Source: Candidatus Aerophobota bacterium (lineage in GTDB: Bacteria; Aerophobota; Aerophobia; Aerophobales; JAGGXI01). Taken from it: 37,527 nt of DNA. The notes under the pieces were generated by a model that made no database searches, was not told the DNA's origin, and was given only the letters and a program-made list of their open reading frames with translations. Position 1 is the first letter of the stretch; each line of letters starts with the position of its first letter. Positions 5,998 through 35,278 of the stretch are shown here, piece by piece. The stretch spans positions 1 through 37,527 of the forward strand of contig JAGGXI010000056.1 in assembly GCA_021163155.1 (NCBI GenBank). The letters are read 5' to 3'. The position numbers and the translations under genes are program-made.

Positions 5998-8541
5998 TTA
6001 CTCTTCCTTCAATTCAATTCCCAGTTGTCGGAAGGTCTCCATTATTTTATCCTCGTAATCCTGCTCAGAGATAGCCCCATCCTTAGCAATAAGTTCTATC
6101 TCTAATGTTTCAAATTTACTTTGCAATAGGTTCATTGCTCCCATAATGCTGGCAACTTTTCCCTTTGGCACTTGAAATTTTAGTTGTATTTTATTTTTGG
6201 TTTTTACAGTTCTTATTTTTTCTTCACCCTTTTCTCCGCCTTTTTTCTCGCCAACTTTAGGTGAAACTCCTGGTTCTGGCCCTGGATATTTGGGTTCCTT
6301 TTCCTCTTTTTCCTTTTGTTCCTGAGATATTTTTTCACTAATAATAATCTCATTGCCAGAGAAGGCAACAGAGGGCTGTTCCTTAAAATAACGATAGATT
6401 GGTTCATTCTCTTTAATTTCACCCAATCCAAAAAGCCCTACATCAACACCTTCTATAATTGCCTGTTCTACAACTTCCCTATTTATTACTCTTGTCTCTC
6501 CAGGGGTTGTAAGGAAAGATTGATATAGCTGTTCTGTTGAAATATAATCTCTATTAACAAAATATCTTTCTTTAATAACTAAAGGAGCAATTTTTTCCAG
6601 TATTTCCCCATCAGAACGCAGTTTCTCGTAAATTTCCTTATCAAGTTCCTTTTCCTCACCATAGGTAGGTATTCCTAAATCAATAGATTTTAATCCATCT
6701 TTACTGGGGATAGCAAGCATTCTATATAATCTTCTTAAAAATTCTTTTAATTCTGATTCTACTTTTTTTAACTGCTTCTTAACCTCTTTTTTTTGCTCAT
6801 CAGAAAGTCTGAGATTTATATCTTTTCCAATATACTCATAGGCAATTTTTTGTTTTAATATATTAGCAAAAGAAATTCTTTCAGATTCCAGTGGGTAGAG
6901 AAAAAATAAGGTATTTCTGCAAACTCGGGGTGTTTTCCCTTTAGTCTTTAAAATGTTATTCATTAGTCCTTTATTTTCTTTTTTTAAAATTATTAGTTTA
7001 AGATTCTTAGAATCAGGAATATTTCCTGGATTTTCCTCCCAGATAAAAACTTTTAATTTATCACCTTTAATGCTCTTTTTTAAAAGTTCCTGCTCCAGGC
7101 TAACAAGCTCATCTTCCTTAACATTTTCCATCTTGGTTAGCAGGATACGGTTTAAATTTGGCTGATTGCTAAAAAAGTATTTATCATCAATGTTTTGTAG
7201 ATAAAATAATTTACTTCTTAATTGCTCAGCAGCTTCTGCCACAACTCCTGCAGGGTTTCCCATGGTAGTAGCAGAACGTTTAATTTCATTCATTGCTATT
7301 CCGCGTTCCTGGCCCCCAGAAAAAGAATAAAGGAATATAGTAATAGTAGCACGAGTGCCCAGATTTAGTCCTTGATAGGCTCTACCCAGTGATGCATCTA
7401 CTTTTTTAGAATTAGCATTTACACCTGTAATATCAATATCTATAATACCATTATATTCTTGCCCAATATGCTTTATGAGCTCCTGCCTTATCTCTTGATT
7501 GGCAAGATTAAAATCTGCCAGACTAATATAGTCTTTATTGGTTCTTATTAAGGAATGTACAATCAGAGAGAGGAGCCTTAGAACTCCGCGGGTTCTCTGA
7601 AAAGTTGGGAAACTTCCCCACCGCTGATATAACACATCTATTACTTCAGGCATAAAAGGATAGGAATCAAAAAATCTATCTCTATATTTACTTGCGTCTA
7701 ATTCCAGAGGAAGTATTCCCTCTTTTTCTGCATAATCCATAAATTTTTCAACAGTCTCTTTTGCATCATTCTCATTGAGACTGCTAAAAAGCCTTCTTTT
7801 AATAATTTTGCTAATCTCTCTTTCCTGAACCGGAGTATAAATTTTTTCTACTCTACCAGCTACTTTTTGTAACTGTTGATAGAGTCTTTCTGCGCTTTCA
7901 TCATAATGTTCAGTAATGCTTGAAGGTAAAGTTACTACTACACAAACTTTTTTTAGTGTGCCTGCTACCTCCATAAGTTCCTTCATAAAAGCAATGGTTT
8001 GAGCAGCTAAATTGTTTTCCCCTACCTTAACACCTGCTGCTCTGGTTACATACTCTAAAACCTCATCCATTAAAATAAGAACAGGCTGATTTTCAAAAAG
8101 TAGTTTTCTAATAGATTCTCTGCCCGGTGCTACTTTTCCAGAGAGCCTTTCAATTTTTCCAGTTAATTGTTTTTCTAAAACTTCCCATAATGTATCTTCT
8201 TTATTTAGCACCGTGCCAACTAAAACTACTTTTTTAACCTTCCATTCTAAAGATTTGTGATACATAGCAATTAAGGCATGGGTTTTTCCTCCACCAAAAG
8301 GAGTTTGAAGTTGGATAACCGGGTCACCCCCCTCTCCCTTTAAACGTTTTCCCACAATAGAAAGCAGGTTCTTAAGTCCTTCTGTGAGATAGGTTTTTCT
8401 AAAAAAAGTATCTCTATCCTTATACTCATCAGGTCCTCTATTTTGATAGACCTCCCATAGATCAGCAGCAAAAATATCCATAGTGAGTCTACCTTCCAAA
8501 ATATCCTTATGAGATATAGCAATTGTATGAAAAGCTTTCAT
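5998..8541 (-). CDS. DUF499-family AAA+ ATPase of a helicase-methylase-ATPase defence operon
   Basis: 847 residues. Walker A is PFGGGKTH (81-88) and Walker B VLILMDE (154-160), both at the N-terminus, in the arrangement of DUF499 proteins annotated as anti-phage associated. A long middle region follows and then an acidic/basic low-complexity linker at about 740-785, rich in KEEKE and GEKKGGEKGEE. The last 60 residues form a small alpha/beta domain. The start codon overlaps the stop of the methyltransferase gene by 4 bp (ATGA), so translation is coupled. With DUF1156 methylase and DUF3883 helicase it makes a three-protein set comparable to the Hma-type systems known to me. ATP-driven assembly or DNA translocation is the likely job, but the biochemistry is not established here. 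Confidence 0.85.
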   Translation of the reverse strand: MKAFHTIAISHKDILEGRLTMDIFAADLWEVYQNRGPDEYKDRDTFFRKTYLTEGLKNLLSIVGKRLKGEGGDPVIQLQTPFGGGKTHALIAMYHKSLEWKVKKVVLVGTVLNKEDTLWEVLEKQLTGKIERLSGKVAPGRESIRKLLFENQPVLILMDEVLEYVTRAAGVKVGENNLAAQTIAFMKELMEVAGTLKKVCVVVTLPSSITEHYDESAERLYQQLQKVAGRVEKIYTPVQEREISKIIKRRLFSSLNENDAKETVEKFMDYAEKEGILPLELDASKYRDRFFDSYPFMPEVIDVLYQRWGSFPTFQRTRGVLRLLSLIVHSLIRTNKDYISLADFNLANQEIRQELIKHIGQEYNGIIDIDITGVNANSKKVDASLGRAYQGLNLGTRATITIFLYSFSGGQERGIAMNEIKRSATTMGNPAGVVAEAAEQLRSKLFYLQNIDDKYFFSNQPNLNRILLTKMENVKEDELVSLEQELLKKSIKGDKLKVFIWEENPGNIPDSKNLKLIILKKENKGLMNNILKTKGKTPRVCRNTLFFLYPLESERISFANILKQKIAYEYIGKDINLRLSDEQKKEVKKQLKKVESELKEFLRRLYRMLAIPSKDGLKSIDLGIPTYGEEKELDKEIYEKLRSDGEILEKIAPLVIKERYFVNRDYISTEQLYQSFLTTPGETRVINREVVEQAIIEGVDVGLFGLGEIKENEPIYRYFKEQPSVAFSGNEIIISEKISQEQKEKEEKEPKYPGPEPGVSPKVGEKKGGEKGEEKIRTVKTKNKIQLKFQVPKGKVASIMGAMNLLQSKFETLEIELIAKDGAISEQDYEDKIMETFRQLGIELKEE

Positions 8542-11249
8542 TTAAATAACCTCCCCTGGATTGTTTCTTCCTTTATTTCCTCTCTAAGACGGACTCTTCC
8601 GGCTAAGAATCCATCAAGGAGTTTTTTCTCTTTACTTTCAATAGATAATGTTTCAGATATTGCCTGGGCAACCCGATAAAATGCCTCTTTTTTTCCATAA
8701 CCTGATTCTTTAAGCAAATTTATCATTTCATCACGCTTGCTCTTTTCCCAGAGCAAGAGAGTTTTGTGTAAAACATCTATAAGCTCTGCTGAATTTTTTA
8801 AATCCTCAAGCTTTCTCTCCTGTGGTCCTAAAACTTTAATAAATTCTCTTTCTTTCTTAATAAATCCTTTTCTGTTCCACTCTTTTGCAATGTCAATGCT
8901 TAAACTTGCGGCAAGTTTGCGCGCCTCATCAAATTGCACCTTTGCCCCACCATAGTTCCAGCGATAAAGAACATAAAAACGGGTTAAATCAGAGATTTCA
9001 CCAGAAAAACCATTATGTAGTATCTGGTGAACTGCATAATCTGTGGCAATTTTTCGCACATCTAAAAGTAACCTATTAGCACGAACAATATTTCCTTCAT
9101 AGTCCATTACTTTTTCATATTTACCAAAAACTTCAATAGCAGAGCCAATTGCGGCAATGAAAAAGTCTGCTCCACCAATACCTTCCTCCCAGAGCCGGCG
9201 AAGTTTATCATTCATATGTTTTTTTAACTGTTCTTTTACCTCGTTATAAAAACCCGTAGGCTGACGCTTCATTTTACGGGCAACTATGTAGATGGAGGAG
9301 GCTAAGGATGCTGTTTCCTTAGCATTTAACCTTGCACCCATCTCAGTATTTAAAGGCCAGGCACCACTCATAATTAAGTTAGAATCAAGTAAAGAGTTAA
9401 TCAGTGTTTCCCAACCCCCAGTTGATTTATGAGCATAAACAATTGTTACAATACCATTTGGCTTTAAAATGCGGTAAATTTCCCGAAATGATTTTTTAAG
9501 ATTATCTTCAAAAAACTCTTTTGCATTTTCTTTTCCACCTTGTCTTATGGGGTTAGCAACAATTTCATTGGATTTAGGAACTAAAGGAGTAGAAAAAAGT
9601 TCTGGATACAAATTTCCAATAGTTCTTTTAAGCCAAACATAAAAAAAATCTGAAAGCTCAGCATAGTTAATATTATCATAATATGGTGGGTCAGTAAAAA
9701 CAGCATCAAAGAAGTTGTCAGGATAGGAAAGAGAGGTAGCAGAAGATTGGGTGATGGTGGAGGGGAGATTGTAAGTTTGGGAAATGTGTTTAATAACTCT
9801 TAAGATCCATTCTGATGCCGAATTCCAATCTGCATTTCCGCCAAATGTGTTTACTTCAGCGTAATCCCAACTCATAGCTAATGCTTGCCTTCCCATCCCA
9901 GGATTTACAAGTTCTCTTGTGTTATGCCAATAACCAAGGGTTGTTAAATATATTGCTATCCTATCCATCCCCAGCCCCAAATAACTCACCACTGCCCTAG
10001 CATACTCCTTTTCATATCCTTGCTCTAACATCTTTTCATAAGCTTTTCTTACCTTTTCCACAAAGGTAATCAAGGCTAATTTTTGTCTGGAGTTAAACAA
10101 ATCTCCCCATTTCGTAAAACCATATCCCCTACCTGCCACAGTAGTTGGATCTTTTGCATTCATTGCCTCATCCGGCACCGGATCCATACCCCATTCCAAC
10201 ATTAGCTTCTCTCTTTTTCCCTTTAAATATTCCTCTGCTTTCTTGAAAATATCCATATCCTTTTCTGTAGCAATTCTATAAAATTTTCCTCTTCTTTTTG
10301 AGTTATGTAAAACAACAGCTATCATTCTCTGTCCTGCTTTTCCTTCCTGAAAAAGTTTTCTCGTAGTTTTGGCATCTATAACTGAGCCACAGATTGGGCA
10401 GGTGATAATTGCCCTTGATATTGTGCCATTAGGAGGGTTAAAATTCTCTGGCATTTTCTCATAGCCATCACCTACTATTTTAAATTTTACTTCTTTATTT
10501 TCAATGTAAGGGAAAAGAGCAACTCTTTTCTTATCTTTTTTTGCAAGCCAGAACTGACGCATTAAAGGAATTTTTGCCCCACAGGAAGGGTTCTGGCAGG
10601 GAATTGTTCTTGCCCAGATATAACCAACAGGAATTGAACCATTTTCCTCAGGATAAAATTCCCCAATTTCTTTCTTTGCTTCCTTTAAAACCCAGTTGCC
10701 CCATTTTTTCACATCTTCAAGGAGTTTATTTTTGACTTTAACTTTTTCTTTATGTTCTTTACCAAATTCCTCAAATTCTTTCTCAACTTCACCGGGTTTT
10801 CCATATTTTTGTGGATATTCAAGGGTGCACTTTAAAATTAAAATGGCAACAGGATTATAATCATTAGCATAAACATCACATCCCAGCCTTAATGCTTCAA
10901 GTGGGATAGTACCACCTCCGGCAAAGGGGTCAAGCACTTTGGGAGGCTTTCCTCCATTTGCCTTTAAAATATCCTCTCTTGCCTGCTTTATCATTTGTTG
11001 ATTTAATGAATTTTCCCATTTTGAGAAATTAATTATAAACTGTCTTTTTCTATTCCATTCATCTATATCTTTTGGTGGAGGAATGAGGGCAGCATAATTG
11101 GTAGCTCTTGATGAGGCAAGAGGGCGTCTTGCCCACCAGATATGAAGTGTAGAGATGTGTCCGTGACGAATATTCTTTTCCTTAGCAGATTCAATACTTA
11201 CCTCTTTTACTGGAAATGTTTCTTCTATAAAGCGTTTGTTATTATTCAT
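8538..11249 (-). CDS. DUF1156 DNA methyltransferase (adenine- or cytosine-N type)
   Basis: 903 residues. The N-terminal DUF1156 segment contains HISTLHIWWARRPLASSRAT (31-50). The SAM-binding motif is DPFAGGG (107-113) and the catalytic motif DPPYYDN (520-526), so the order is alpha-like with a very large insert between the motifs. The insert carries a split zinc-ribbon-like set of cysteines, C218/C223 and C284/C287. DPPY points to exocyclic amino methylation of adenine or cytosine. It overlaps both neighbours by 4 bp. In DUF499/DUF1156 loci the methylase is thought to mark self DNA. No restriction endonuclease is separate; the DUF3883 nuclease-like end of the helicase could supply cleavage (inference). 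Confidence 0.88.
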   Translation of the reverse strand: MNNNKRFIEETFPVKEVSIESAKEKNIRHGHISTLHIWWARRPLASSRATNYAALIPPPKDIDEWNRKRQFIINFSKWENSLNQQMIKQAREDILKANGGKPPKVLDPFAGGGTIPLEALRLGCDVYANDYNPVAILILKCTLEYPQKYGKPGEVEKEFEEFGKEHKEKVKVKNKLLEDVKKWGNWVLKEAKKEIGEFYPEENGSIPVGYIWARTIPCQNPSCGAKIPLMRQFWLAKKDKKRVALFPYIENKEVKFKIVGDGYEKMPENFNPPNGTISRAIITCPICGSVIDAKTTRKLFQEGKAGQRMIAVVLHNSKRRGKFYRIATEKDMDIFKKAEEYLKGKREKLMLEWGMDPVPDEAMNAKDPTTVAGRGYGFTKWGDLFNSRQKLALITFVEKVRKAYEKMLEQGYEKEYARAVVSYLGLGMDRIAIYLTTLGYWHNTRELVNPGMGRQALAMSWDYAEVNTFGGNADWNSASEWILRVIKHISQTYNLPSTITQSSATSLSYPDNFFDAVFTDPPYYDNINYAELSDFFYVWLKRTIGNLYPELFSTPLVPKSNEIVANPIRQGGKENAKEFFEDNLKKSFREIYRILKPNGIVTIVYAHKSTGGWETLINSLLDSNLIMSGAWPLNTEMGARLNAKETASLASSIYIVARKMKRQPTGFYNEVKEQLKKHMNDKLRRLWEEGIGGADFFIAAIGSAIEVFGKYEKVMDYEGNIVRANRLLLDVRKIATDYAVHQILHNGFSGEISDLTRFYVLYRWNYGGAKVQFDEARKLAASLSIDIAKEWNRKGFIKKEREFIKVLGPQERKLEDLKNSAELIDVLHKTLLLWEKSKRDEMINLLKESGYGKKEAFYRVAQAISETLSIESKEKKLLDGFLAGRVRLREEIKEETIQGRLFK

Positions 11250-14200
11250 AATTTTATTTCTCCTTTTTCTTTTAGCTCCTCAAATGGGATAACATATCTC
11301 ACCACTTCTACTTTTTCTTCTGGTTTTAACTCTTTTGCCGGGTTCTGAATTATATAAAGCCCGGGATTCTTAGTAGCATTCATTATAGCGTAAAGATAAT
11401 ACTCATCTTTAAATCTTGTAGCTTTAAACCATTCGTTTTTAGTTAATGCTACGGCCCCTTTTTCTTTTCTTGCCTTAACTTCAATATAGCGCATATTGCC
11501 ATTTTTATCTTTTGAGCGAATATCAAATCCAAGATTTTCTGAAGATACATCCTCAGGTGCTCTTCCCTTTTTCCTCTCGTATTCCATCACAATTTGCATA
11601 CCAATTTGCTCTATCTCTTTATCACTTTGCATTGCTTTATCTATGGTATCCTTTGGTTTTACTTTAATAATACCAATAAAATGAGGCATACTCATAGTAA
11701 GGCTTTTTTCCTTATTAATCTTTTCTTTTAACTCGTTTAATGCCTTTTCATACTCTTTTTTTCTCTCTTCTTTGTTTCTTATGGCAAGGTTAACATTTTC
11801 ACCTTGTTCTTTACGGGCATATAGCGAGATTAAATCACCATCAAGTTTTAAAATAAGATGCTCCAGCGACTTTATGCCATACTTCTCTTTAATCTTTGCC
11901 TGTCTATGGCGCTCCTCCAAAGTTTCCCCTTTATACTTTTCAATCTCTTGGATAACAAATTTAACTGTTTTATTCTTAAGAGATTCTATATCAACAGTAG
12001 AATTATCTAAATGGTGCTCTTCTTCAAGGTCCCAAATAATGGCAGGGGGAATTGGTCTCACTTTCTCCTCATTTACATAAAAACTGAAAAGCCTTTTGCC
12101 AGCTACATTACCTGTTCCATCCTTAATCTCTCCCTCATAAAAAAGAATGTATCCATTCATTTTTCCATCAGGATCTGTGAAGGTAGCCCCGTTAATTAAA
12201 GAATCTGATAAGTTAGTCTTTATCCAGACCATTACAGCTTCAAAGAGAGGATGACCAAAAGAGATAAACTCTACATCAGGATTTTTAAAGGCAATTTCTT
12301 TATCAAAAGTTACTTTAGGATATCTTCTTATTAGCTGTCCATAGGATCTTTTAAATTTATCATCTTGAGCGATTTTTCTTAACTCATAAGGAACAGAATC
12401 TATAGCTAAAAATCCGTCTTTAAGATTATGAAATTTGCCACCTATTTTAATAAAAGCCTTCTTAAAAAAGTTTTCTGTATATTCAGGAATAAGACGATGC
12501 TCTCGTGCCTGTTGTGCCATCTCTTTTATACGGGTGTAATCAATATAGCGTGTAGCAAGACTTTCTCCTAAATTTTCTTTAATCCTGGCAATATAGCTCT
12601 CATCTACTTTAGGTTCTACATCTTTTAGTATCTCATCAATATTTCTGGCATTAGCAGCAGCTTCCAATAAAAGTTGTGAGAGATTTTTATCATAAAGCAC
12701 CTCACCCAGACAATCAAATACTTTATCCGTTCCCAATGCTTTTTTAATTTCTTCCAGTTTGTCAAATAGTCTTTTTAAAACTTTTCCTTCCCTGGTGTCC
12801 TCTGCTACAAGATTAAAAATATAAACCTCTCTCTGTTGACCATAACGATGAATCCTTCCCATTCTTTGCTCAAGTCTATTAGGATTCCAGGGTATATCAT
12901 AATTTATCATCAGATGGCAAAACTGAAGGTTTATACCCTCTCCTGCTGCCTCTGTAGCTACTAAGATTTGAGTTTCATTTTTAAATATTTTCTCTGCATT
13001 TATCCTATCCTCCAGTTTCATCCCGCCATGGATAACATTAACTGTATAGCCCTGCCCTTTAATTTTTCTCTTAAGATATTCCAGAGTATCTCGTGACTCA
13101 GTAAAAATAATAATCTTTTTATCTTTTTGCTCTGTATATTTTTGCTCTAATTCTTTCAGTGATTTTTTAAGTTCTCTTAATTTAATTTCTTCCTCTTTTT
13201 GAATTATATCTTTAGCACGATTAATAAGAATACCTATAATCTTAATTTCTTTTTCCAGTTCCTCTCTATTTTCAGCAACACTCAAGGTTTCCCACATCTC
13301 TTCTTCTTCCCATCTTTCCTTTTCACTTAAATCTTCAACAACATCAAAATCAAAAGTATATTCCCTGGATTTATCTTTTTCTTGCACCCCTTTTAATAAA
13401 TTCTCCAGTTTATTTTTTCTTCTTTTTAATGATTCAAGCAAGGCATAAGTGCTTGATGCTAAACGGCGCTGCAAAATTACTAAAGCAAAGGCAACATTCC
13501 TCCTTTTATCTTTTGTTAAAGCTTTATTATACTGTGTATTAACATATCTGGATAATTCATTGTAAAGGTTCTTTTCATCAGGAGAATCTGCACCCAGATT
13601 AAAAGTTTTAGTTATTACATGTCGGGGTAAGAAAAGAAGTTTCCCCTCAAAATCTTTTAAATCTTCTTTAATGCGTCTTATAAATAAAGGATTATCTTTG
13701 TTTTTAATAGATTCTTGAACCATAGCGGTTGTAGCAAAAAAACCTGGTTCAAGAAGGTCCAAGAAAAGTCTAAAGTTTTCAGGGTCTCCCTTATGAGGTG
13801 TTGCCGTTAAAAACAATAAATGGTCTGTTTTTCTTGAAAGTATCTCTCCCAATCTGTAGCGAATTGTCTTTTCTACCTTGTTACCATAGCGATAAGCACT
13901 CATCTTATGTGCTTCATCAACAATGATAAGGTCAAAGTGAGCAGCAGAAATGGAGGGAAGAACATTATCTTTTTTAATAAAATCAATTGAGGTAATTATC
14001 TGGTTTTCTCTTAACCATATATTCTCTCCGTAAAGAGCATTTAAGAGTCCTCTATCAATCTGGAGGAATTTCTCTTCAAATTTTTCAGCTAATTCTCTTC
14101 TCCATTGATCTTTAAGATGTCCAGGAGTTACTATTAAAACTCTTTTTATAAGATTGCGAAGCTTTAACTCTTTAATGATAAGCCCAGCCATAATTGTTTT

Positions 14201-14602
14201 TCCTGCTCCTGGGTCATCAGCTATTAAAAAACGAATTCTTGGAAGTTTTAATACATACCCGTAAACAGCTTCAATTTGATGAGGCAGAGGGTCTATTTTT
14301 GATGTGTTCATTGCTAAAAGAGGGTCATATAAAGATGCAAAACGGTAACGAGTTGCCTCAAGAGCTAAAAAAACTTTTCCCGGGTCCTCTGAGCAAATAA
14401 TTTCTGTTCCAATTACAGAAATCTTTGAAAACTCCTCTCGAGAGATAAGCTGGTCAATATGAGAATAGGAAATTGTAGTAACACCAACAATGTGAATATA
14501 TCCTCCAGTTTCCTCAATAAGCTTAATTTCAACGGGTTCTGGCCAATTTAATCCTTTAATAATATTCCCTTGCTTAATATTTTTCATTTCATCTCGTTTC
14601 AT
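11246..14602 (-). CDS. SNF2-like helicase with C-terminal DUF3883 domain
   Basis: 1118 residues. Walker A DDPGAGKT (129-136), DEAH (229-232), TATPH (266-270) and the C-terminal helicase lobe with IIIFTESRDT, VATEAAGEGINLQF and RMGRIHRYGQ show a complete superfamily 2 motor. Acidic and lysine-rich coiled coil lies between the lobes. The last ~120 residues contain LGFDIRSKDKNGNMRYIEVK, matching DUF3883. The GFD...IEVKAR spacing recalls PD-(D/E)xK nucleases, so a nuclease remnant or active nuclease is possible. The ATG overlaps the MNT stop by 4 bp; a second in-frame ATG lies five codons in. DISARM DrmD helicases look similar, but DrmA, DrmB and DrmC are absent here. Confidence 0.88.
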   Translation of the reverse strand: MKRDEMKNIKQGNIIKGLNWPEPVEIKLIEETGGYIHIVGVTTISYSHIDQLISREEFSKISVIGTEIICSEDPGKVFLALEATRYRFASLYDPLLAMNTSKIDPLPHQIEAVYGYVLKLPRIRFLIADDPGAGKTIMAGLIIKELKLRNLIKRVLIVTPGHLKDQWRRELAEKFEEKFLQIDRGLLNALYGENIWLRENQIITSIDFIKKDNVLPSISAAHFDLIIVDEAHKMSAYRYGNKVEKTIRYRLGEILSRKTDHLLFLTATPHKGDPENFRLFLDLLEPGFFATTAMVQESIKNKDNPLFIRRIKEDLKDFEGKLLFLPRHVITKTFNLGADSPDEKNLYNELSRYVNTQYNKALTKDKRRNVAFALVILQRRLASSTYALLESLKRRKNKLENLLKGVQEKDKSREYTFDFDVVEDLSEKERWEEEEMWETLSVAENREELEKEIKIIGILINRAKDIIQKEEEIKLRELKKSLKELEQKYTEQKDKKIIIFTESRDTLEYLKRKIKGQGYTVNVIHGGMKLEDRINAEKIFKNETQILVATEAAGEGINLQFCHLMINYDIPWNPNRLEQRMGRIHRYGQQREVYIFNLVAEDTREGKVLKRLFDKLEEIKKALGTDKVFDCLGEVLYDKNLSQLLLEAAANARNIDEILKDVEPKVDESYIARIKENLGESLATRYIDYTRIKEMAQQAREHRLIPEYTENFFKKAFIKIGGKFHNLKDGFLAIDSVPYELRKIAQDDKFKRSYGQLIRRYPKVTFDKEIAFKNPDVEFISFGHPLFEAVMVWIKTNLSDSLINGATFTDPDGKMNGYILFYEGEIKDGTGNVAGKRLFSFYVNEEKVRPIPPAIIWDLEEEHHLDNSTVDIESLKNKTVKFVIQEIEKYKGETLEERHRQAKIKEKYGIKSLEHLILKLDGDLISLYARKEQGENVNLAIRNKEERKKEYEKALNELKEKINKEKSLTMSMPHFIGIIKVKPKDTIDKAMQSDKEIEQIGMQIVMEYERKKGRAPEDVSSENLGFDIRSKDKNGNMRYIEVKARKEKGAVALTKNEWFKATRFKDEYYLYAIMNATKNPGLYIIQNPAKELKPEEKVEVVRYVIPFEELKEKGEIKL

Positions 14603-22429: not shown

Positions 22430-23062
22430 ATGATTGAGGTGAAAAAGCCAGGCGCAGATAGAAGAAAGTTTAGAGGAGTCATTTTTGATTTAGATGGAGT
22501 ATTGGTAAAATCCCATCTTGATTTTAAACTTATGAGAAGGGAAATTTTTGGTTTTGATTTTAATGAACCCCTGCTTGAGAAAATAAAAAAGATAAGTAAT
22601 CCTACTAAAAAAGATCGAGCCTGGAAAATTTTAGAGAGATATGAGAGAGAAGCTGCTTTAACATCTGAACTCAATGAAGGTATTCCTTTACTTTTGGAGG
22701 TATTAAATAAGAAAAATATTAAAAGTTCTGTTGTAACCAGAAATAGCAAAGAATCCGTAGATATCACTAATGATAGATTCAAGCTAAATTTTAATTTTAT
22801 CGTTACCAGAGATGATGCTCCTCCTAAGCCAGCCAAAGAACCTGTGCTCTTATCCTGTAAGAAAATGGGACTGAAACCCAAAGATGTAATGTTTATCGGC
22901 GACTACGAGTTTGATATGGTATCAGGTAAAGGGGCAGGAACGACGACGGTTTTATTAAAAAATAGTAAACAGCCTTTTTCTCAAAATGCCGATATTATAG
23001 TGGATTCTCTTAAGGATGTTCTTAAAATAATCGATAAAAAAGAAGAAAAAAGTGAGAATTAG
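22430..23062 (+). CDS. HAD-superfamily phosphatase (phosphoglycolate phosphatase-like)
   Basis: 210 residues. Motif I VIFDLDGVL (nucleophile D20, acid D22), motif II VVTRNS, motif III Lys in PPKPAKEPV, and motif IV FIGDYEFDMVSGKGAG are all in place, with an inserted helical cap of about 65 residues, as in HAD subfamily IA. Substrate is unknown. AGGAG lies 11 nt before the ATG, a rather long spacer. The next gene's GTG start overlaps its end by 11 bp, implying coupled translation with the secreted protein. Confidence 0.85.
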   Translation: MIEVKKPGADRRKFRGVIFDLDGVLVKSHLDFKLMRREIFGFDFNEPLLEKIKKISNPTKKDRAWKILERYEREAALTSELNEGIPLLLEVLNKKNIKSSVVTRNSKESVDITNDRFKLNFNFIVTRDDAPPKPAKEPVLLSCKKMGLKPKDVMFIGDYEFDMVSGKGAGTTTVLLKNSKQPFSQNADIIVDSLKDVLKIIDKKEEKSEN

Positions 23063-24965
23063 AAATATTCTGATGTTTCTTTTTACTCTTTTTATTATAT
23101 CTGTTACCTTAAATTCTATTAGTATGTCCTCTCCTGGCGAACCTTTTATTAAGAGTTTATTAATTGTTTCTAACGTGGGAGATAGTATTCCTGACGATGA
23201 AAATAAGATAGTTAAATATAGAGATGAAGTGAATTTATTTGCTGTAATAAAGGATAAAAGAGGAAATTATTATTTGGGGGACGATAATTTTTTCCCTGAT
23301 AAAGTACGTTTAATAAGGGGAAAATTCAAAGAACTCTTAATGATAGGAGAAGGGGTTTACTCTATAGATAAGGGGACCCTTAAAAGGTGGAATAAGAAAG
23401 AATGGGGAGAGTTATCTTTCAACTGGTACAAAGTGATGCCAAAGATGGTACCTTCTCATCCCATTTCAACCTATAAATGGTATTCAAATGTTTTCACCGA
23501 ATACCCTGATGAAGGGGTATGGAGTGGATTTGATACTATAGAATACCAACAGGAGCTTTTGTCTGAGAAGGGTTGGCAAATACATCTACCAGGAGAACCA
23601 GGAACAGTTAGATTTAGAGTGGAGGTAAACTATAATGGGAGGACGGTCTCCTCACCCGGAAGGAACGACCCTTCACAACCAAGCCATATTGCTGCTCAAG
23701 ATTATGACAGGGGTATTAAACCTACAGTGCATAAAATTAGCAGACTTTCTAATCATAAAAATAGATTAATAAGATATATTGAAGCTTTTAAAGGTGTTCC
23801 CTGGTGTTGGGGGGCAGAATATAAAAAAGATGAAGAGCCCACTTCACATCAATCCGAGCTCTCTAATCCTGTCTGTATAGAATGTTCAGATTTGGTAATT
23901 GCCGCTTTAAGAGCTATGGGAAATGAAAATCTTTGCTATACCACGGCGGATGAGATAGCAAGAGGAAAGTATACTAAACCCATAGATAAGAGAGTTTTTA
24001 GGTATCTTCTTCTTGATATTTTTCATAGCTGGATTCCCAAAGGAGTAATTTTCTATAATAATGATTTTTATTTTTGTGGCAAAGGGAAAATCCAGATACG
24101 TGACCGCAATTTCAGGTTAAAAAAAGAGATTAAGAAATCTTCTTTTAATTATATAGATATCGCTATTTCTAATGATGATAGAATATATCTTATAAATGAG
24201 GTAAAAGATACGGAAAGGGAGATACAGGTTCTCGATTTTCAAGGAAATGAGAAAATGCGTTTTAATTTAAAAGTTGAGCGGAGTATAAAGTTAGGCGACC
24301 AGACTTATACTAAAGAATTTTTAGCCAGACCGGAAGGAATCACTATTTCCAAAGAAAATAATGAGATATATTTATTATCTTCTGATGAGGTGTATATTCT
24401 TGATCTAAATGGAAGATTGAAGAAGAGTTTTAAATTAAAAAACCTTTATGGTTCATTTGTTCCTACGGGATATCTTGTTGTGAGGAAAGGTTTAATTTAT
24501 ATTCCTGTTTATGATAAAAAAATCTTAGTTTATAATATGGAAGGCGAGGTAGTAAATAAAATAGTAATGGAAGATGTTGTCTTTGGACTTGATGTTTATG
24601 ATGATAGATTATGTGTAATAAATATAAGCCCTCTTCGAGTTATTCTGTATAAATTGAACGGGGAATTTTTAGAAGATTTCCGAAAAGCAATTGTTGACGA
24701 GAGTGGCGAAAGAATTACTATTCCTATTGGTGAGAAAAAAGATAATTTACATATAGGAGACCTTATTATGACTGGTGAGGAAGAGGCAGAAAACTTTAGT
24801 CATACAATGCTTCTTTATGAAGATTCTAATTTTAACGGTTTTCTGGATGGAGATGATAAAGTTATTTACGCTGGGCATAAAGGAGTTATGATTAGTCCCC
24901 TGGAAGAAAAGTTAAGAGGAAGAGATTTTACTCTTAGAAGATTTGATGGGTCTTTAATAAAATGA
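23052..24965 (+). CDS. Secreted NlpC/P60-like cysteine hydrolase interrupted by a beta-propeller-like insert
   Basis: 637 residues beginning with a signal peptide or anchor (hydrophobic about 6-25). After an N-terminal beta domain (30-200) come PWCWGAEY (250-257) and CIECSDLVIAALRAMG (275-290), matching the Cys half of NlpC/P60 domains, with C278 the likely nucleophile. Residues 331-545 form at least four NHL-like strands repeats (DDRIYLIN, NNEIYLLS, KGLIYIPV, DDRLCVIN). The matching His half follows only after them: IGDLI (568-572) and FSHTMLLYED (H584). Next is an EF-hand-like loop, DSNFNGFLDGDD (591-602). Cell-wall or amide hydrolysis is inferred; the insert is unusual. GTG start overlapping the HAD gene. 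Confidence 0.65.
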   Translation: MRIRNILMFLFTLFIISVTLNSISMSSPGEPFIKSLLIVSNVGDSIPDDENKIVKYRDEVNLFAVIKDKRGNYYLGDDNFFPDKVRLIRGKFKELLMIGEGVYSIDKGTLKRWNKKEWGELSFNWYKVMPKMVPSHPISTYKWYSNVFTEYPDEGVWSGFDTIEYQQELLSEKGWQIHLPGEPGTVRFRVEVNYNGRTVSSPGRNDPSQPSHIAAQDYDRGIKPTVHKISRLSNHKNRLIRYIEAFKGVPWCWGAEYKKDEEPTSHQSELSNPVCIECSDLVIAALRAMGNENLCYTTADEIARGKYTKPIDKRVFRYLLLDIFHSWIPKGVIFYNNDFYFCGKGKIQIRDRNFRLKKEIKKSSFNYIDIAISNDDRIYLINEVKDTEREIQVLDFQGNEKMRFNLKVERSIKLGDQTYTKEFLARPEGITISKENNEIYLLSSDEVYILDLNGRLKKSFKLKNLYGSFVPTGYLVVRKGLIYIPVYDKKILVYNMEGEVVNKIVMEDVVFGLDVYDDRLCVINISPLRVILYKLNGEFLEDFRKAIVDESGERITIPIGEKKDNLHIGDLIMTGEEEAENFSHTMLLYEDSNFNGFLDGDDKVIYAGHKGVMISPLEEKLRGRDFTLRRFDGSLIK

Positions 24966-26326: not shown

Positions 26327-27379
26327 ATGCATAAAAGTACAAAAGTAATAACTTTAATAACTTTTATTTTGTTTAGTGTAGCAAGTGTAAGTAGCATTGT
26401 TTTTACGGCAGAAACAAAACCTATAGTATTCAAATTGGGTCATTTTGAACCTCCGGATGTATACACTACCATTGAGCATCCTATGGCAGTAGTTTTTAAA
26501 TCCATTGTAGAGGCGAGAACCAATGGTCAAATTAAAGTTGAAATTTACCCCTCTTGCACACTTGGCAAGGAAAGAGAAATGATGGAGAGTACACAACTTG
26601 GGGTTATTCAAGGATGCATCATTGCTGAAGGGACAGTCCCTATTTTCTTCCCATTAATTCAAGTTTTTAGTATACCTTATCTTTTTCCCACTGAGAGTAT
26701 TGGATGGAAGGTAACAGATGGTTCTTTTGGAAAGGAGCTATTTGAAGAGATGCGACGAACCACAGGTTTACGAGTAATAGCTACTGGTCGAGGAGCATTT
26801 CGAAATTTCACTAATAGTAAACATCCTATCCATTCTCCAAAGGATATGAAAGGTTTAAAATTGAGAACAATGCAAATCCCGGCTCATATGGCTATGGTAA
26901 AAGCTTTAGGAGGAGCAGCTACGCCTATATCTTGGGCTGAAATTTATTCTGCTCTTCAAACTGGTGTTGTAGATGGACAGGAAAATCCTGTGGGAATAAT
27001 TGTTTCTGGGAGGTTATACGAGGTACAGAAATATCTTACACTTGATGGTCATGTTTATAGTACCAGTTTCTTTATGATTAACGATGAATGGTTTAAATCT
27101 TTACCAAAATCTTATCAGAAAATTATTCTGGATGCTGGAAGGGCAGCTACTGTAACTGGTAGAGGTGTTTCTCGGTTGCAAGATGCATTAGGTTTGAAGA
27201 AGTTAAAAGATGAAGGAATGGAGGTTTACTCACCTACATCTGAGGAAATGGCTGAGTTTAGAAAACGTTCTCAGGGAACAGTTATTCAATGGTTGAGAGA
27301 GAATGTTAAGGGTTCAGATAAATGGATTGATAAACTTCTTAAGGAAACAGAAGATACAGAGAAAAAGTTAGGGTGGTAA
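26327..27379 (+). CDS. dctP: TRAP transporter substrate-binding protein
   Basis: 350 residues with a signal peptide (about 1-29). The DctP fold is marked by KLGHFEPPDVYTTIEHPMAV near the N-terminus, GLKLRTMQIPAHMAMVKALG with the conserved Arg that clamps the substrate carboxylate, and DGQENPVGIIVSGRLYEVQK. The periplasmic protein hands an organic acid to the DctQM channel, driven by a sodium or proton gradient. The ligand cannot be told from sequence; context suggests an aromatic or methylated acid at most as a guess. AAGGAG lies 7 nt before the ATG. Confidence 0.9.
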   Translation: MHKSTKVITLITFILFSVASVSSIVFTAETKPIVFKLGHFEPPDVYTTIEHPMAVVFKSIVEARTNGQIKVEIYPSCTLGKEREMMESTQLGVIQGCIIAEGTVPIFFPLIQVFSIPYLFPTESIGWKVTDGSFGKELFEEMRRTTGLRVIATGRGAFRNFTNSKHPIHSPKDMKGLKLRTMQIPAHMAMVKALGGAATPISWAEIYSALQTGVVDGQENPVGIIVSGRLYEVQKYLTLDGHVYSTSFFMINDEWFKSLPKSYQKIILDAGRAATVTGRGVSRLQDALGLKKLKDEGMEVYSPTSEEMAEFRKRSQGTVIQWLRENVKGSDKWIDKLLKETEDTEKKLGW

Positions 27380-27399
27380 AAAATCGGTTAGATTACGAA

Positions 27400-27433
27400 A
27401 TAGAACTGGCGGAAAGCTTTCCGCCAGTTCTAT
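27400..27433. terminator. Perfect 34-bp palindrome after dctP
   Basis: Arms ATAGAACTGGCGGAAAG and CTTTCCGCCAGTTCTAT meet without a loop, centred on AAGCTT, 20 bp after the dctP stop. No T run follows, so it may be an RNA-stabilising or attenuating hairpin between dctP and dctQM rather than a classical terminator. Confidence 0.5.
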
Positions 27434-27474
27434 ATAACTTTATAATATATAGAGCTTATTAAAGTTCTCCACCT

Positions 27475-27548
27475 GGGTAGGGGAGGCTTTAGCCTCCCAA
27501 TAGACTCTAACTCTTGTTTTGCAAAGGGCGACTGAAGTCGCCCTACCC
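27475..27548 (-). repeat. Palindromic repeat core R2, reverse orientation
   Basis: 74 bp equal to the core of R1 read on the other strand: GGGAGGCTTTAGCCTCCC, TCTAACTCTTGTTTTGCAAA, GGGCGACTGAAGTCGCCC. The GATTCGGCAA ends are absent; instead CCAC/GTGG flanks it. Fills the dctP-dctQ gap together with the palindrome; nothing else is seen in 27380-27651. Confidence 0.75.
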
Positions 27549-27651
27549 ACAAGTGGGTTGTCTAAAATTTTGGTAGGTTGAAGTAGGTTAAAAATAGAGG
27601 GAAAGAAGTTCTTAAATCGCCTCATATATAATAAAAGCAAAGGCAGAAAAT

Positions 27652-28161
27652 GTGGATAGAATAGTCAAGTTTGTTTTAGTGATAAGTGATATTATTGATA
27701 GGATAGCAGGGTCTATATGCATATTTTTAGGTATAGGTATGACAGTTATTGTGGTAGTAAGTGTTTTTTTTCGATATGTTCTCCTCTCTCCTTTGGTTTG
27801 GGCGGAAGAAATATCAACATTTTTAATGGTATGGTTAGCTATGATGGGGGCAAGTATGGGATTAAAGAAGAATAAACACGTAGGAGTAAATTATATAGTA
27901 GAAAAACTTGTTTCTTCTAAGAGAGTGAAAAAAATAATAAGTATAATAGTTAATGTACTAATTGTAATTTTCTTAATAGTAATGCTAAAGGAAGGATATT
28001 CTCTTTCTCTATTTGCAAAAAATCAAGTATCTCCTGCTATAGGAATATCTATGTTTTGGCCTTATTTTGGGCTTTTGGTAGGAGGATTTATAATGATTGT
28101 ACAGGTGGTATGTCGAATAATAGAAGATTTTAATATGGTTGTACAGAGAAAAACTATTTGA
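27652..28161 (+). CDS. dctQ: TRAP transporter small membrane subunit
   Basis: 169 residues with four membrane helices at about 8-38, 45-65, 85-110 and 125-150. It has the DctQ features RYVLLSPLVWAEEISTFLMV and a lysine-rich loop. GTG start with AAAGG 8 nt upstream; the overlapping ATG one base earlier is out of frame and closes after four codons. DctQ joins DctM and contacts DctP. 58 bp to dctM. Confidence 0.88.
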   Translation: MDRIVKFVLVISDIIDRIAGSICIFLGIGMTVIVVVSVFFRYVLLSPLVWAEEISTFLMVWLAMMGASMGLKKNKHVGVNYIVEKLVSSKRVKKIISIIVNVLIVIFLIVMLKEGYSLSLFAKNQVSPAIGISMFWPYFGLLVGGFIMIVQVVCRIIEDFNMVVQRKTI

Positions 28162-28219
28162 GAGTATGAAAACAATTTAATTAACCAATAATAATTGTAA
28201 TTACTTAAAAAGGAAAAAA

Positions 28220-29509
28220 ATGGCATTAGTTGTTATGACAATAGTTTTTGGTTTATCTTTAATATTAGGTATGCCAATTGCTTTTTGCTTAGGATTGTCT
28301 TCATTGGCTACTTTTATATATATAGGAAATCCCCTGTTTTTAAAGATAATTCCCCAGATGATATTTCAAGGAATAAGTATGTTTTCACTTATGGCGATTC
28401 CTTTCTTTATATTAGCAGGGGAGATAATGAATAAATCGCAAATTACAGATACTATAATAAATTTCGCAAATGTTTTAGTAGGGCATATAAAGGGAGGATT
28501 AGCTCATGTAAATATAATCTCCAGTATATTTTTTGCTGGTATCACAGGAGCAGCCGTAGCGGATACAGCTGCTTTGGGTACGATATTAATACCTGCAATG
28601 GTTCATGAGGGATATGATGAGGATTTTAGTGCGGCTGTTACTGTGTCTTCTTCTGTAATAGGACCAATTATTCCACCCAGTATTGTTATGGTGATTTATG
28701 GGGTAACTATGAAAGTCTCTATCGCTGCTTTGTTTGCTTCAGGATTTGTGCCAGGTCTTCTAATCGGAATTGCATTAATGATTGTAGCTTACTTTATTTC
28801 TAAAAAAAAGGGTTACGGTTATAGAAAGAGAGCATCGTTTCGAGAAATACTATCCAAATCCAGAAAAGCATTTTGGGGTTTACTGATGCCTATTATAATT
28901 TTAGGAGGCATTCTTAGCGGTGTATTTACTCCAACAGAGGCAGCTGCTGTAGCTGTAGTTTATGGGTGTTTTGCTGGTTTCTTTATTTTCCGAACCTTAA
29001 AATTATCTGATTTCCCAGGTATGTTAAAGCGTACCGCAATTACAAGCTCTGTGGTTCTTTTGATAATAGGGAATGCTAAGATTATGGGTTGGATTTTAGC
29101 TTATGAACATATGCCTGAGATTATGGCTAATCTGTTTTTATCAATTACTAATAATCCTTATCTTATGCTTTTATTAATAAATTTACTTTTATTAATTGTA
29201 GGAATGTTTATGGAAATTTCAGCCGCTATTGTACTTTTGGCTCCTATATTAGCGCCTTTAGTTACATCTTTTGGGATTCATCCTCTTCATTTTGCTATCG
29301 TAATGTTAGTTAATTTAAATATTGGTCTTATAACTCCCCCTCTTGGACAATGTTTATTTACAGTTTGTGGTATAACTAATTTATCTATGGAGCAAGTAGT
29401 GAAGGCTACCTTGCCTTTTATTTTAGCAGAAATTGCCGTTCTCATACTAATAACGTATATTCCTGCTTTAACAGCATTTATTCCTCAACTGTTAGGTTAT
29501 TATAAATAA
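28220..29509 (+). CDS. dctM: TRAP transporter large membrane subunit
   Basis: 429 residues, the normal DctM length, with about 12 membrane segments. Characteristic stretches: LMAIPFFILAGEIMNKSQIT, GAAVADTAALGTILIPAM, IIPPSIVMVIYGV, FTPTEAAAVAVVYG, and NLNIGLITPPLGQCLF. It forms the ion-coupled elevator for the acid delivered by DctP. AAGGA precedes the ATG. Completes an intact three-gene TRAP system. Confidence 0.92.
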   Translation: MALVVMTIVFGLSLILGMPIAFCLGLSSLATFIYIGNPLFLKIIPQMIFQGISMFSLMAIPFFILAGEIMNKSQITDTIINFANVLVGHIKGGLAHVNIISSIFFAGITGAAVADTAALGTILIPAMVHEGYDEDFSAAVTVSSSVIGPIIPPSIVMVIYGVTMKVSIAALFASGFVPGLLIGIALMIVAYFISKKKGYGYRKRASFREILSKSRKAFWGLLMPIIILGGILSGVFTPTEAAAVAVVYGCFAGFFIFRTLKLSDFPGMLKRTAITSSVVLLIIGNAKIMGWILAYEHMPEIMANLFLSITNNPYLMLLLINLLLLIVGMFMEISAAIVLLAPILAPLVTSFGIHPLHFAIVMLVNLNIGLITPPLGQCLFTVCGITNLSMEQVVKATLPFILAEIAVLILITYIPALTAFIPQLLGYYK

Positions 29510-31099: not shown

Positions 31100-34000
31100 A
31101 TGAATTCAAAAAGGAAAGATAAATACTTATTAGGACTTGATTTAGGTTCTATAAGTGTGAACGCTATAATTATAGATAAAGAAGGGAAAATTGCTTATGA
31201 GGAGGGTTATACCCGACATAATGGTAAGCCCCTGGAGACAGCCTACCAAATTGTAAAAAAAATAGCTAAAATGTATTATTTTGAACATATAGGAGTTACT
31301 GGTTCCAATGGAGAGCATCTTAGTAAAGAATGGGATATTCCTTATTTAGAGGAAGTAATAGCTCAGGCTAAGGGTATTTACCATCTCCATCCTGAAGTAA
31401 AGACAGTTATAGATATAGGGGGAGGCGACGCCAAATTTATTACCCTTAATGAGAGAGGAGAAGTAAAGGATTTCGGGATGAATAGTAGTTGTGCTTCTGG
31501 AACAGGCTCTTTTTTAGACCAGCAGGCAAAAAGGTTAGGGCTGAATATAGAAAATGAATTTGCAGAAGAGGCTTTAAAATCTACCAATCCTGCTCGTATT
31601 GCTGGAAGATGTGCTGTATTTGCTAAGACAGATATGATTCATCTCCAACAAAAAGCTACTCCTAATAGGGATATAACTATGGGGTTATGTGAAGCTTTAG
31701 CCAGAAGCTATAAGAGTAGTATTGCTCGAGGGAAAAGCTTTATCTCTCCTATATCATTTCAGGGAGGGGTAGCTGCCAATAAGGCAATGGTTGTTGCTTT
31801 TAGAAAAGTTTTAAAAGGTAAAGAGATAATCGTTTCTGAACATCATTACTCTATAGGAGCTTTAGGGGCAGCACTTTTTTTAAGGGAAAATAACGAGAAG
31901 AAAAAATTTGATTTATCAAATTTAAAAAAAGAGTTTTCCTTAAGCAGAGAGAGCGAAGCTTTGCCAAAACTCTCCTTAAATTATCAAGAAGAAAAATCTT
32001 ACTTAAAAGAAAAGTTTTATGATTTTGACGGAAATGGAGAGTTGATAGATGCTTATATAGGTATAGATATAGGCTCTGTAAGCACCAATGTAGCAGTAAT
32101 CGATAAAAAGAAGCGCCTTTTAGCTAAAAGTTATCTTCCCACTGCAGGAAAACCTATTGATGCTATGCAAAAGGGGTTAAAAGAGGTTAGAGATATTGTG
32201 GAAGGAAAAGTAAGAATCAAGGGAGTGGGAACTACAGGCTCGGGTAGATATATGATCGGAGCTTTTGTAGGAGCAGATGTAATTAAAAATGAGATTACAT
32301 CTCAAGCTAAGGGAGCATTAAATGTTAACTCAAATGTAGATACAATATTTGAAATTGGAGGTCAGGATTCAAAATATATCAGTTTAAAGAATGGAGTAAT
32401 AGTTGATTTCACCATGAATAAAGCCTGTGCTGCAGGCACAGGTTCCTTTCTTGAAGAACAGGCTGAAGGATTAAAGATAAATATTAAAAGAGAATTTGAA
32501 AAGATAGCTTTTTCCAGTGATAGTCCAGCCAATTTAGGCGATAGATGCACTGTATTTATGGAGTCCTCTTTATTTGAGCATCTTCAAAGGGGAGTTCCTG
32601 TCCCCAATTTAGTAGCAGGTTTAGCTTATTCCATAGCTTATAACTATTTAAATAAGGTAGTAGAAAATAGGAGAATAGGAGAGAATATCTTTTTTCAAGG
32701 AGGAACAGCCTGTAATAAATCTGTAGTAGCTGCTTTTGAGAATATTTTAAAAAGAAAAATAACTGTTCCTCCACATAATGAGGTTTTAGGAGCAATTGGA
32801 GTAGCTATTGTGGCTATGGAAGAGAAGATTAAGAAAAGCAAATTTAAAGGGTTCAGTTTAAGTGATGTAAGTTATAGAATGGAGTCTTTCGAGTGCCAGG
32901 ATTGTCCCAACCATTGCAAAGTTAACCAGGTTTGGATTAAAGGGAAGGAGAAACCCTTAACTTATGGCGATAGATGTGGTAAATATAGTGAAAAAGAGGG
33001 AAGAGCAAAAACGAAAAGTGTGCCAAATTTATTTAAAGAAAGAGATAAATTATTATTTTATAGAAGAAAGAAAAAAGGACAAAAAGGGAAAATTGGTATA
33101 CCTCGCGCTCTTTATAATTTTGAACTCTTTCCTTTGTGGGAAAATTTCTTTACAGAATTAGGCTATGAAGTTGTTCTCTCAGACAAAACTAACGATATAA
33201 TTATAGATAGGGGAGTAGAAATAGTGGTTGGTGAACCCTGTTTTCCTATCAAAGTTGCTCATGGTCATATATTAAATCTTTTGGAGAAGAGGATAGATTA
33301 TATATTTTTGCCAAGTTTGATTGACTTAAAAAAAACTGATGAAAATCTAAAAAGAAGCTATAATTGTCCCTGGTCTCAATCTCTTCCTTATTCCGTTAAT
33401 TCAGTTATTAATAGAAAAGAGTACCCAGTTAAATTTCTTGAGCCTGAGATATCTTTAAGGGTAGGGGTAGAAAAAGCCTTAAATAAGATAGGAAAAGAGC
33501 TTGGAGAAAAACCATCTAATATTAAAAAGGCTATTGAGGTGGCTGAGGAAGCTCAATCTCAATTTTACAGGGATTTAAAAAAGAAAGGGAAAGAGGTATT
33601 AAAAAATTTAAAAGGAAAGAAAGCCTTTATTTTAGTTTCTCGACCTTATAATGGATGCGATCCGGGGTTAAATTTGGATATAGTTGAGAAGATGAGAGAT
33701 TTAGGAATGCTGGCTATTCCTATGGATTTTTTAAATTTATCTTTTTTCCCTATTTATGAAGATTATCCTAATATGTATTGGGGATATGGGCAAAGGATTA
33801 TTGCTGCAGCCAAAGCAATTAAGAGTACTAATAATCTTTATTCTATATATATTACCAATTTTGGTTGTGGGCCAGATTCTTTTATTACCAAATACTTTGA
33901 TGAAGAGATGGATAGACCCTGGTTAGAACTCCAAATAGATGAGCATAGCGCAGAGGCTGGTATCATTACTCGGTTAGAAGCTTTTCTGGATAGTATTAAA

Positions 34001-35278
34001 AACAAGAAAATCGGAAAAAAGAAAAAATTTAAAAGCCCCGAAAAATTAACTTTAAAGGACGAGCAAAGGACAATCTATATCCCTTATATGGATGACCATT
34101 CTTATGCTCTGGAAGCTGCTCTGAAGGCACTGGGCAAAAAAGCAAAAGTTATGGAGGTTAGTGACTCAGATTCTCTGCAAAGAGGACAGAGATATACCAG
34201 TGGCAAAGAATGCTATCCTTGCGTTTTAACTACAGGGGATATGCTTAAAGTGATAAGTAAGAATGGACATCACCCTGAAAATATTGCTTTTTTTATGGGA
34301 ACAGCACAAGGTCCTTGTAGGTTTGGACAATATTATGATTTTCAAAGATATCTTTTAAAAAGGCTTGGTTATTCAGATATTCCTATAATTTCTCTTGATT
34401 CAGAAAATAGCTATGGAGGCTATGGAGTAAAATTTACTAAATTAGCCTGGGAGGGCATCGCAGCTATAGATATATTAAGAAAGGTTCAAAGAATTATAAG
34501 GGCAGATGAAATAAACAGAGGAGAAACAAATAAAGTATATTTAAAGTATAGAGATAAAGTTCGCCAGATAATTAGCGAAGGAAAAAGTGTAACAAATATA
34601 ATGAAAGAGGCAGCCAAAGCTTTTGGGAAAATAGATAGAGAGAATAAAGATAAACCTGTAGTGACAATAGTAGGAGAAATATATATAAGGCATAATCCTT
34701 ATGCTAATGAGTTTCTCATAGATGAATTAGAGAAATTAGGGCTAAAGGTTGAATTAGCCTCTATGAGAGAGTGGTTTATGTATACCAATGAGGTGCATAA
34801 AATAGTTGCCTTAACTGAAGAAGGTTGGTGGGAGTTAATTAAAAATAGAGTAAGAAATCTATTTCAAAGAAAAATTGAAGAAAGACTTGATGCTCCTTTT
34901 AAATCTTTAACGAAGGGATATGAGGAACCAGATGTAAGTGAAGTCCTTACTTTAGGAGAAAAGTATGTAGATAGATCTTTAAGGGGAGAAGCTATCTTAA
35001 CCATAGGAAAAACTATACACTCCATAAAAAGGGGTAGGGATGGGGTAGTGAATGTGATGCCTTTTACCTGCATGCCGGGGAATATATCTTCCGCTGTAAT
35101 TCCTCAGATAGAGAAAGATTATCCTGATTTTCCTATTCTTAGCTTATCTTACGATGGTTCTCGTCAAGCTAATTATTTAAACAAGGTAAGGACATTTGCT
35201 TTTCAGGTGTATAGCCATCATAGAAAATCAGTAAATAGTAAGAAGAGGCTAAACCCAGGATTTCAATTACGAGAATGA
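31100..35278 (+). CDS. Giant acyl-CoA dehydratase activase (two BcrAD/BadFG domains, DUF2229, HgdB-like)
   Basis: 1392 residues. Two ASKHA ATPase domains in tandem: LGLDLGSISVNAI with SCASGTGSF and GRCAVF (C131, C171), and IGIDIGSVSTNVA (321-333) with ACAAGTGSF and DRCTVF (C443, C483). Each Cys pair is of the kind that bridges a [4Fe-4S] cluster between activase subunits. A cysteine knot CQDCPNHC (599-606), a DUF2229 region from about 660 (IGIPRALYNFE, GEPCFPIKVAHGH) and an HgdB-like C-terminal half (RPYNGCDPG, NFGCGPDSF, GKECYPC, GPCRFGQY) follow. HgdC-type activases use ATP to send single electrons to 2-hydroxyacyl-CoA dehydratases or benzoyl-CoA reductases. The role of the fused giants is unknown. 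GGAGG at 8 nt. Confidence 0.88.
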   Translation: MNSKRKDKYLLGLDLGSISVNAIIIDKEGKIAYEEGYTRHNGKPLETAYQIVKKIAKMYYFEHIGVTGSNGEHLSKEWDIPYLEEVIAQAKGIYHLHPEVKTVIDIGGGDAKFITLNERGEVKDFGMNSSCASGTGSFLDQQAKRLGLNIENEFAEEALKSTNPARIAGRCAVFAKTDMIHLQQKATPNRDITMGLCEALARSYKSSIARGKSFISPISFQGGVAANKAMVVAFRKVLKGKEIIVSEHHYSIGALGAALFLRENNEKKKFDLSNLKKEFSLSRESEALPKLSLNYQEEKSYLKEKFYDFDGNGELIDAYIGIDIGSVSTNVAVIDKKKRLLAKSYLPTAGKPIDAMQKGLKEVRDIVEGKVRIKGVGTTGSGRYMIGAFVGADVIKNEITSQAKGALNVNSNVDTIFEIGGQDSKYISLKNGVIVDFTMNKACAAGTGSFLEEQAEGLKINIKREFEKIAFSSDSPANLGDRCTVFMESSLFEHLQRGVPVPNLVAGLAYSIAYNYLNKVVENRRIGENIFFQGGTACNKSVVAAFENILKRKITVPPHNEVLGAIGVAIVAMEEKIKKSKFKGFSLSDVSYRMESFECQDCPNHCKVNQVWIKGKEKPLTYGDRCGKYSEKEGRAKTKSVPNLFKERDKLLFYRRKKKGQKGKIGIPRALYNFELFPLWENFFTELGYEVVLSDKTNDIIIDRGVEIVVGEPCFPIKVAHGHILNLLEKRIDYIFLPSLIDLKKTDENLKRSYNCPWSQSLPYSVNSVINRKEYPVKFLEPEISLRVGVEKALNKIGKELGEKPSNIKKAIEVAEEAQSQFYRDLKKKGKEVLKNLKGKKAFILVSRPYNGCDPGLNLDIVEKMRDLGMLAIPMDFLNLSFFPIYEDYPNMYWGYGQRIIAAAKAIKSTNNLYSIYITNFGCGPDSFITKYFDEEMDRPWLELQIDEHSAEAGIITRLEAFLDSIKNKKIGKKKKFKSPEKLTLKDEQRTIYIPYMDDHSYALEAALKALGKKAKVMEVSDSDSLQRGQRYTSGKECYPCVLTTGDMLKVISKNGHHPENIAFFMGTAQGPCRFGQYYDFQRYLLKRLGYSDIPIISLDSENSYGGYGVKFTKLAWEGIAAIDILRKVQRIIRADEINRGETNKVYLKYRDKVRQIISEGKSVTNIMKEAAKAFGKIDRENKDKPVVTIVGEIYIRHNPYANEFLIDELEKLGLKVELASMREWFMYTNEVHKIVALTEEGWWELIKNRVRNLFQRKIEERLDAPFKSLTKGYEEPDVSEVLTLGEKYVDRSLRGEAILTIGKTIHSIKRGRDGVVNVMPFTCMPGNISSAVIPQIEKDYPDFPILSLSYDGSRQANYLNKVRTFAFQVYSHHRKSVNSKKRLNPGFQLRE

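Follow-up and report, generated by a model that had tools for sequence, protein, structure and literature searches.

The window analysed here, the whole stretch of 37,527 nucleotides, comes from an incomplete 1.83-Mb assembly of 119 contigs assigned to Candidatus Aerophobota, a little-known bacterial phylum. It carries an ORF on the forward strand encoding a 637-aa protein, with the features listed in Table 1: a signal peptide or N-terminal anchor, a mostly-beta domain, and a catalytic domain of NlpC/P60 type that is interrupted by a beta-propeller. The protein is exported, as seen from its export-type N-terminus, of which residues 1-28 are variable, with a mean identity of 22% among family members.

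Table 1. Features of the 637-aa protein and their positions in the window
Feature	Residues	Position	Strand	Basis or remark
Whole ORF		23052..24965	+	637 aa, GTG start; signal peptide, N-terminal beta domain, NlpC/P60-type hydrolase with propeller insert
Predicted signal peptide / N-terminal anchor	1-28	23052..23135	+	RIRN followed by ILMFLFTLFIISVTL
N-terminal mostly-beta domain	31-225	23142..23726	+	no Pfam match; common to L081 and L093
Catalytic domain, first half	226-312	23727..23987	+	profile comparison, L081 alignment, MAFFT, model
PWCWG motif	250-254	23799..23813	+	counterpart of canonical PYxWG
C278, predicted nucleophile	278	23883..23885	+	helix start; invariant in 11 family members, L081 and 16 canonical NlpC/P60 rows
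Five-bladed NHL-like beta-propeller	313-547	23988..24692	+	both models, Foldseek; missing from L081 and L093
Blade 1	326-363	24027..24140	+	internal repeat alignment
Blade 2	365-405	24144..24266	+	internal repeat alignment
Extra beta-hairpin between blades 2 and 3	407-424	24270..24323	+	conserved, Y419 invariant
Blade 3, most NHL-like	426-464	24327..24443	+	repeat alignment; Brat match begins here
Blade 4	469-507	24456..24572	+	internal repeat alignment
Blade 5	508-546	24573..24689	+	internal repeat alignment
Catalytic domain, second half	548-637	24693..24962	+	profile comparison, L081 alignment, MAFFT, model
GD motif, beta-strand 1 of NlpC/P60 cluster	569-570	24756..24761	+	9/10 members, L081, 16/16 canonical rows
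H584, predicted catalytic His	584	24801..24803	+	MAFFT alignment, conservation
EF-hand/dockerin-like loop DSNFNGFLDGDD	591-602	24822..24857	+	DxNxNGxxDxxD ligand pattern
H609	609	24876..24878	+	invariant; 3 residues past canonical third-His column (Y606 here)
R629-R630, Arg/Lys partner of GD motif	629-630	24936..24941	+	last strand; R/K629-630 in all members

Of the 17 genomes in the window's order, 11 carry the gene (the window's own and 10 others), with the insert present in every one. The relatives in the 10 other genomes are full-length and 43-52% identical; in named records their sequences belong mainly to Candidatus Aerophobetes, and two records are labelled Clostridia. Family-derived patterns run against 85,000 genomes returned no members beyond those already known, and no relatives were found in the viral contigs, plasmids and phages searched. 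The Cys half had a mean pairwise identity of 64%, the His half one of 52% and the propeller one of 40%, and the higher conservation of the two catalytic halves was counted in favour of a split enzyme.

Searches of Pfam, NCBIfam, PADLOC and PDB sequences with the full protein or the family alignment gave no NlpC/P60 match, nor did Pfam and PDB sequence searches with a chimera from which the propeller had been excised; neither protein nor chimera reached the curated cut-off of PF00877 (NLPC_P60). A reference profile was built from 33 sequences that were PF00877 hits in other genomes, four poor rows having been dropped beforehand. Compared with this profile by HHalign, the chimera matched at 96.3% (E 1.6e-9, 105 columns), end to end, C278 aligning with the nucleophile position and H584 with that of the catalytic His. 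Among the controls, the best of 60 column shuffles reached 10% and the reversed chimera 0.35%; in score, the chimera obtained 57, versus a maximum of 22.8 for the 60 shuffled copies and 13.2 for the reversed one. The uncut family alignment matched the same profile at 45%, over 47 columns only. Unguided MAFFT alignment of the uncut proteins with 16 canonical domains left the C278 and H584 columns invariant and opened a single gap, at the propeller. DUF1287 was tried as a closer relative and rejected, being weaker (24%) in profile comparison. Judged by its sequence, the 637-aa protein is a relative within the NlpC/P60 superfamily and not a member of PF00877.

The chimera profile search gave one match outside the order, a 346-aa ORF without a propeller at locus L081 of genome G101. 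It aligned at 98.7% over 263 columns, comprising the N-terminal domain, DCADV, GDFI, QHIGALYSDENKNGVLDEDD and IIHAG, and it keeps the Cys, the His and the calcium-type loop, which there reads DENKNGVLDEDD. With L081 added, the profile led to a second relative without a propeller, L093 in genome G343 (396 aa; 95.5% over 317 columns). In L093:1232-2422 (-) the Cys and His are apparently lost, and L093 is likely a pseudoenzyme of the same family. Weak profile matches in G336, G348 and G101:C112 could not be substantiated as further relatives. Because the domain is uninterrupted in the propeller-free L081 and L093, the insertion point could be set at about residues 313 and 547, after the second helix and before the strand running into GDL. 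The initial annotation had proposed that the Cys and His halves are one catalytic domain split by a propeller, and that residues 240-310 joined to 560-637 would resemble NlpC/P60. The joined sequence was strongly positive in profile-profile comparison, plain Pfam scans of single chimeras being negative, and the single domain is borne out by the controlled profile match and the propeller-free relatives. It is thus confirmed that residues ~226-312 and ~548-631 form one NlpC/P60-type domain with the propeller inserted between them.

Without canonical rows, AlphaFold modelled the full-length protein at a mean pLDDT of 70 and pTM of 0.57, with residues 242-279 below pLDDT 50. With canonical NlpC/P60 rows in the alignment, residues 222-637 reached a mean pLDDT of 89 and pTM of 0.82, a confidence that partly depends on the hypothesis through the rows supplied and is not independent of it. 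The order of elements in this second model is that of NlpC/P60: the helix at C278, then strands 571-575, 584-590, 603-608, 611-616 and 625-631. Both halves are confident around the propeller, which loops out of the catalytic domain as had been anticipated. Helix 278-288 was present in both models, and the propeller had a pLDDT of about 85-96 in both runs. With either model the best 50 Foldseek matches were all propellers, and no structural NlpC match was among them.

NHL domains (Brat, Mei-P26) ranked first in Foldseek, with E ~1e-11, and the family profile alone matched the Brat NHL domain with E 3e-4. Five repeats of ~40 residues were alignable, 6 of the 10 pairs outscoring every one of 40 shuffled controls. 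The middle region of about 300 residues had been read in the initial annotation as a propeller of at least four NHL-like blades; the propeller and its NHL-like character stood, and the number of blades is corrected to five, as counted from the sequence repeats and the strand order. Blade sequence and fold are like those of Brat and Mei-P26, but these NHL propellers are six-bladed, whereas the one here is five-bladed and carried as an insert.

C278 lies within IECSDLVIAALRAMG and H584 within SHTMLLYED, 306 residues apart, and both positions were as first given. The Cys half had, however, been written with the motif PWCWGAEY, whose cysteine is the unconserved C252, 26 residues before C278; C252 was ruled out as the nucleophile. 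C278 and E277 are invariant in all family members (11/11), and H584 and H609 are kept in the 10 non-truncated ones. C278 aligned with canonical DCSG, and H584, at the strand 2 position, with a His, in 16 of 16 canonical rows each. As in NlpC/P60 peptidases (PF00877, MEROPS C40; YkfC, Spr), the Cys stands at a helix start after (Y/W)xxG, the GD motif is on strand 1, the His on strand 2 and an Arg on the last strand, in an equal order of elements; the GD motif is partnered by an Arg/Lys on the last strand (PMC10318531). At L005:1345-3333 (+) the GD motif is replaced by SG, and Cys and His are kept. Unlike these peptidases, the protein has a 235-residue propeller before strand 1 and lies below Pfam detection, and its third His is moved: the canonical column on strand 3 holds Y/C/F606 in the family, with the invariant H609 three residues further. 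The canonical motifs PYxWG, DCS and LPRT likewise appear as PWxWG, EC(S/A) and xYT, with W251 in place of the Tyr in all family members.

The gamma-D-Glu contacts of YkfC are made by Tyr, Trp, Asp, Ser and Ser (PMC2954226). In the family, Tyr is changed to Trp251 and Asp to Glu277, and Ser279 is Ala in half of the members. With these gamma-D-Glu-recognising positions changed, the 637-aa protein probably acts on a substrate other than the classical one, and classical gamma-D-glutamyl specificity appears unlikely for it. The EF-hand/dockerin-like loop, at first thought to lie between the Cys and His halves, comes after H584. Its residues D591, N593, N595, D599 and D602 are kept in 10/10 complete members, and it is one residue shorter in three members. 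This calcium-type loop may bind calcium.

The reading that we prefer, and consider probable, is that the gene encodes an exported NlpC/P60 (papain-like) cysteine amidase/peptidase, with its catalytic domain split by a five-bladed NHL-like propeller acting as a substrate-selecting cap. The propeller interrupts the domain between the C278 core helix and the H584 beta-sheet, and the halves would fold back into one active site with C278 as nucleophile, H584 as base and H609 as a possible third residue; in Tse1-type enzymes a Cys-His dyad suffices and the third residue is dispensable (PMC3391265). Such a site would probably be catalytically active. Both ends of the insert lie immediately ahead of the first sheet strand, so its most likely place is against the catalytic cleft, where it may serve as a cap or binding platform near the active site that binds or sizes the substrate. 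The substrate is likely a cell-envelope peptide amide, probably peptidoglycan-related and not the standard gamma-D-Glu/diamino-acid bond. PBP transpeptidase genes occur in 17/17 genomes of the order; these bacteria thus probably contain peptidoglycan, which is a plausible substrate.

Papain-like deubiquitinases (UCH, PF00443) also have a large substrate-gripping insert between core helix and beta-sheet (PMC10318531), but their fingers are a small beta-sheet and not a propeller, and these enzymes are eukaryotic and act on ubiquitin. An extra domain, the first SH3b, shapes the active site of YkfC (PMC2954226). In prolyl oligopeptidase and acylaminoacyl peptidase a propeller with hydrolase sequence on both sides hides the active site (PMC3574126); these are, however, serine alpha/beta hydrolases with just a short N-terminal hydrolase segment before the propeller. 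In Tse1-Tsi1 a propeller-like protein lies over the active site of an NlpC/P60-like amidase (PMC3391265), but the two are separate proteins and Tsi1 is a partial propeller from another family. No published case of an NlpC/P60 enzyme with an inserted propeller was found in the open-access literature searched.

The main rival to a substrate-selecting cap is a built-in inhibitor or gate, in which the propeller keeps the active site closed and is displaced by a ligand, calcium or a partner. Tsi1 reaches into the active site of Tse1 with a loop (PMC3391265). Such a role would fit the place of the insert, which directly separates the two active-site halves, as well as the conserved hairpin 407-424 and the conserved calcium-type loop adjoining the catalytic His; a substrate-binding cap accounts for the same facts, and we regard the gate as possible but doubtful. 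The PF00877 search found no gene in the 17 genomes of the order, many of them incomplete, versus 35 of 53 others searched alike. The more specific proposal of a gate or inhibitor moved by calcium or ligand, in a lineage whose searched genomes yielded no canonical NlpC/P60 gene, seems to us rather unlikely. If the propeller were a gate, propeller gating as in prolyl oligopeptidase would have arisen independently a second time, on a cysteine-hydrolase fold.

The protein could also be a catalytically dead, substrate-binding descendant of NlpC/P60 enzymes with the propeller as its binding module. It may be likened, by description, to DUF1175 (PF06672), which is described as inactive and peptidoglycan-binding (PMC10318531). 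The altered surroundings of the active site (Y to W251, D to E277, the moved third His) would agree with this, as would L093, whose apparent loss of Cys and His indicates that dead copies exist in the wider family. Unlike in L093, however, C278 (11/11), H584 (10/10) and H609 (10/10) are retained across lineages 43-52% identical, and we judge a dead enzyme unlikely.

The occurrence of propeller-free relatives with the same N-terminal domain in two other lineages indicates that the insert is a real domain-in-domain event. Just two such relatives were found, and the propeller might instead be ancestral to the family and lost in L081 and L093; but none of the canonical NlpC/P60 domains aligned carries a propeller and two separate losses could be needed, which makes this very improbable. 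That the Cys and His motifs come from separate, unrelated stretches flanking the propeller, as the lack of a significant Pfam match for either half and the poorly folded Cys half of the first AlphaFold run might suggest, is hardly credible given the controlled profile match across the join and the natural uninterrupted relatives L081 and L093.

Large domains inserted in the core of small hydrolases are rare. Here standard annotation misses the enzyme because of the split, there being no Pfam NlpC/P60 match to a protein that yet looks catalytically intact, and inventories of cell-wall hydrolases in deep bacterial lineages can therefore miss real enzymes. What the propeller does can be tested directly, since nature offers relatives that carry the insert and others that lack it.

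The genes neighbouring the family members differ among the relatives inspected, with no conserved neighbourhood hinting at a pathway. In the window, an ORF at 25171 that from reading of the sequence is a putative GntR-type regulator stands ahead of a TRAP transporter set DctP-DctQ-DctM (26327-29509, +), and a 1392-aa fusion protein encoded at 31100-35278 (+) joins DUF2229 to two BadF/BadG-type CoA-enzyme activase domains. Three adjacent genes at 5998-14602 (-) matched HmaC (E 1e-125), HmaB (8e-142) and HmaA (3e-211) in PADLOC and make up a complete-looking Hma (helicase-methylase-ATPase) anti-phage defence system.
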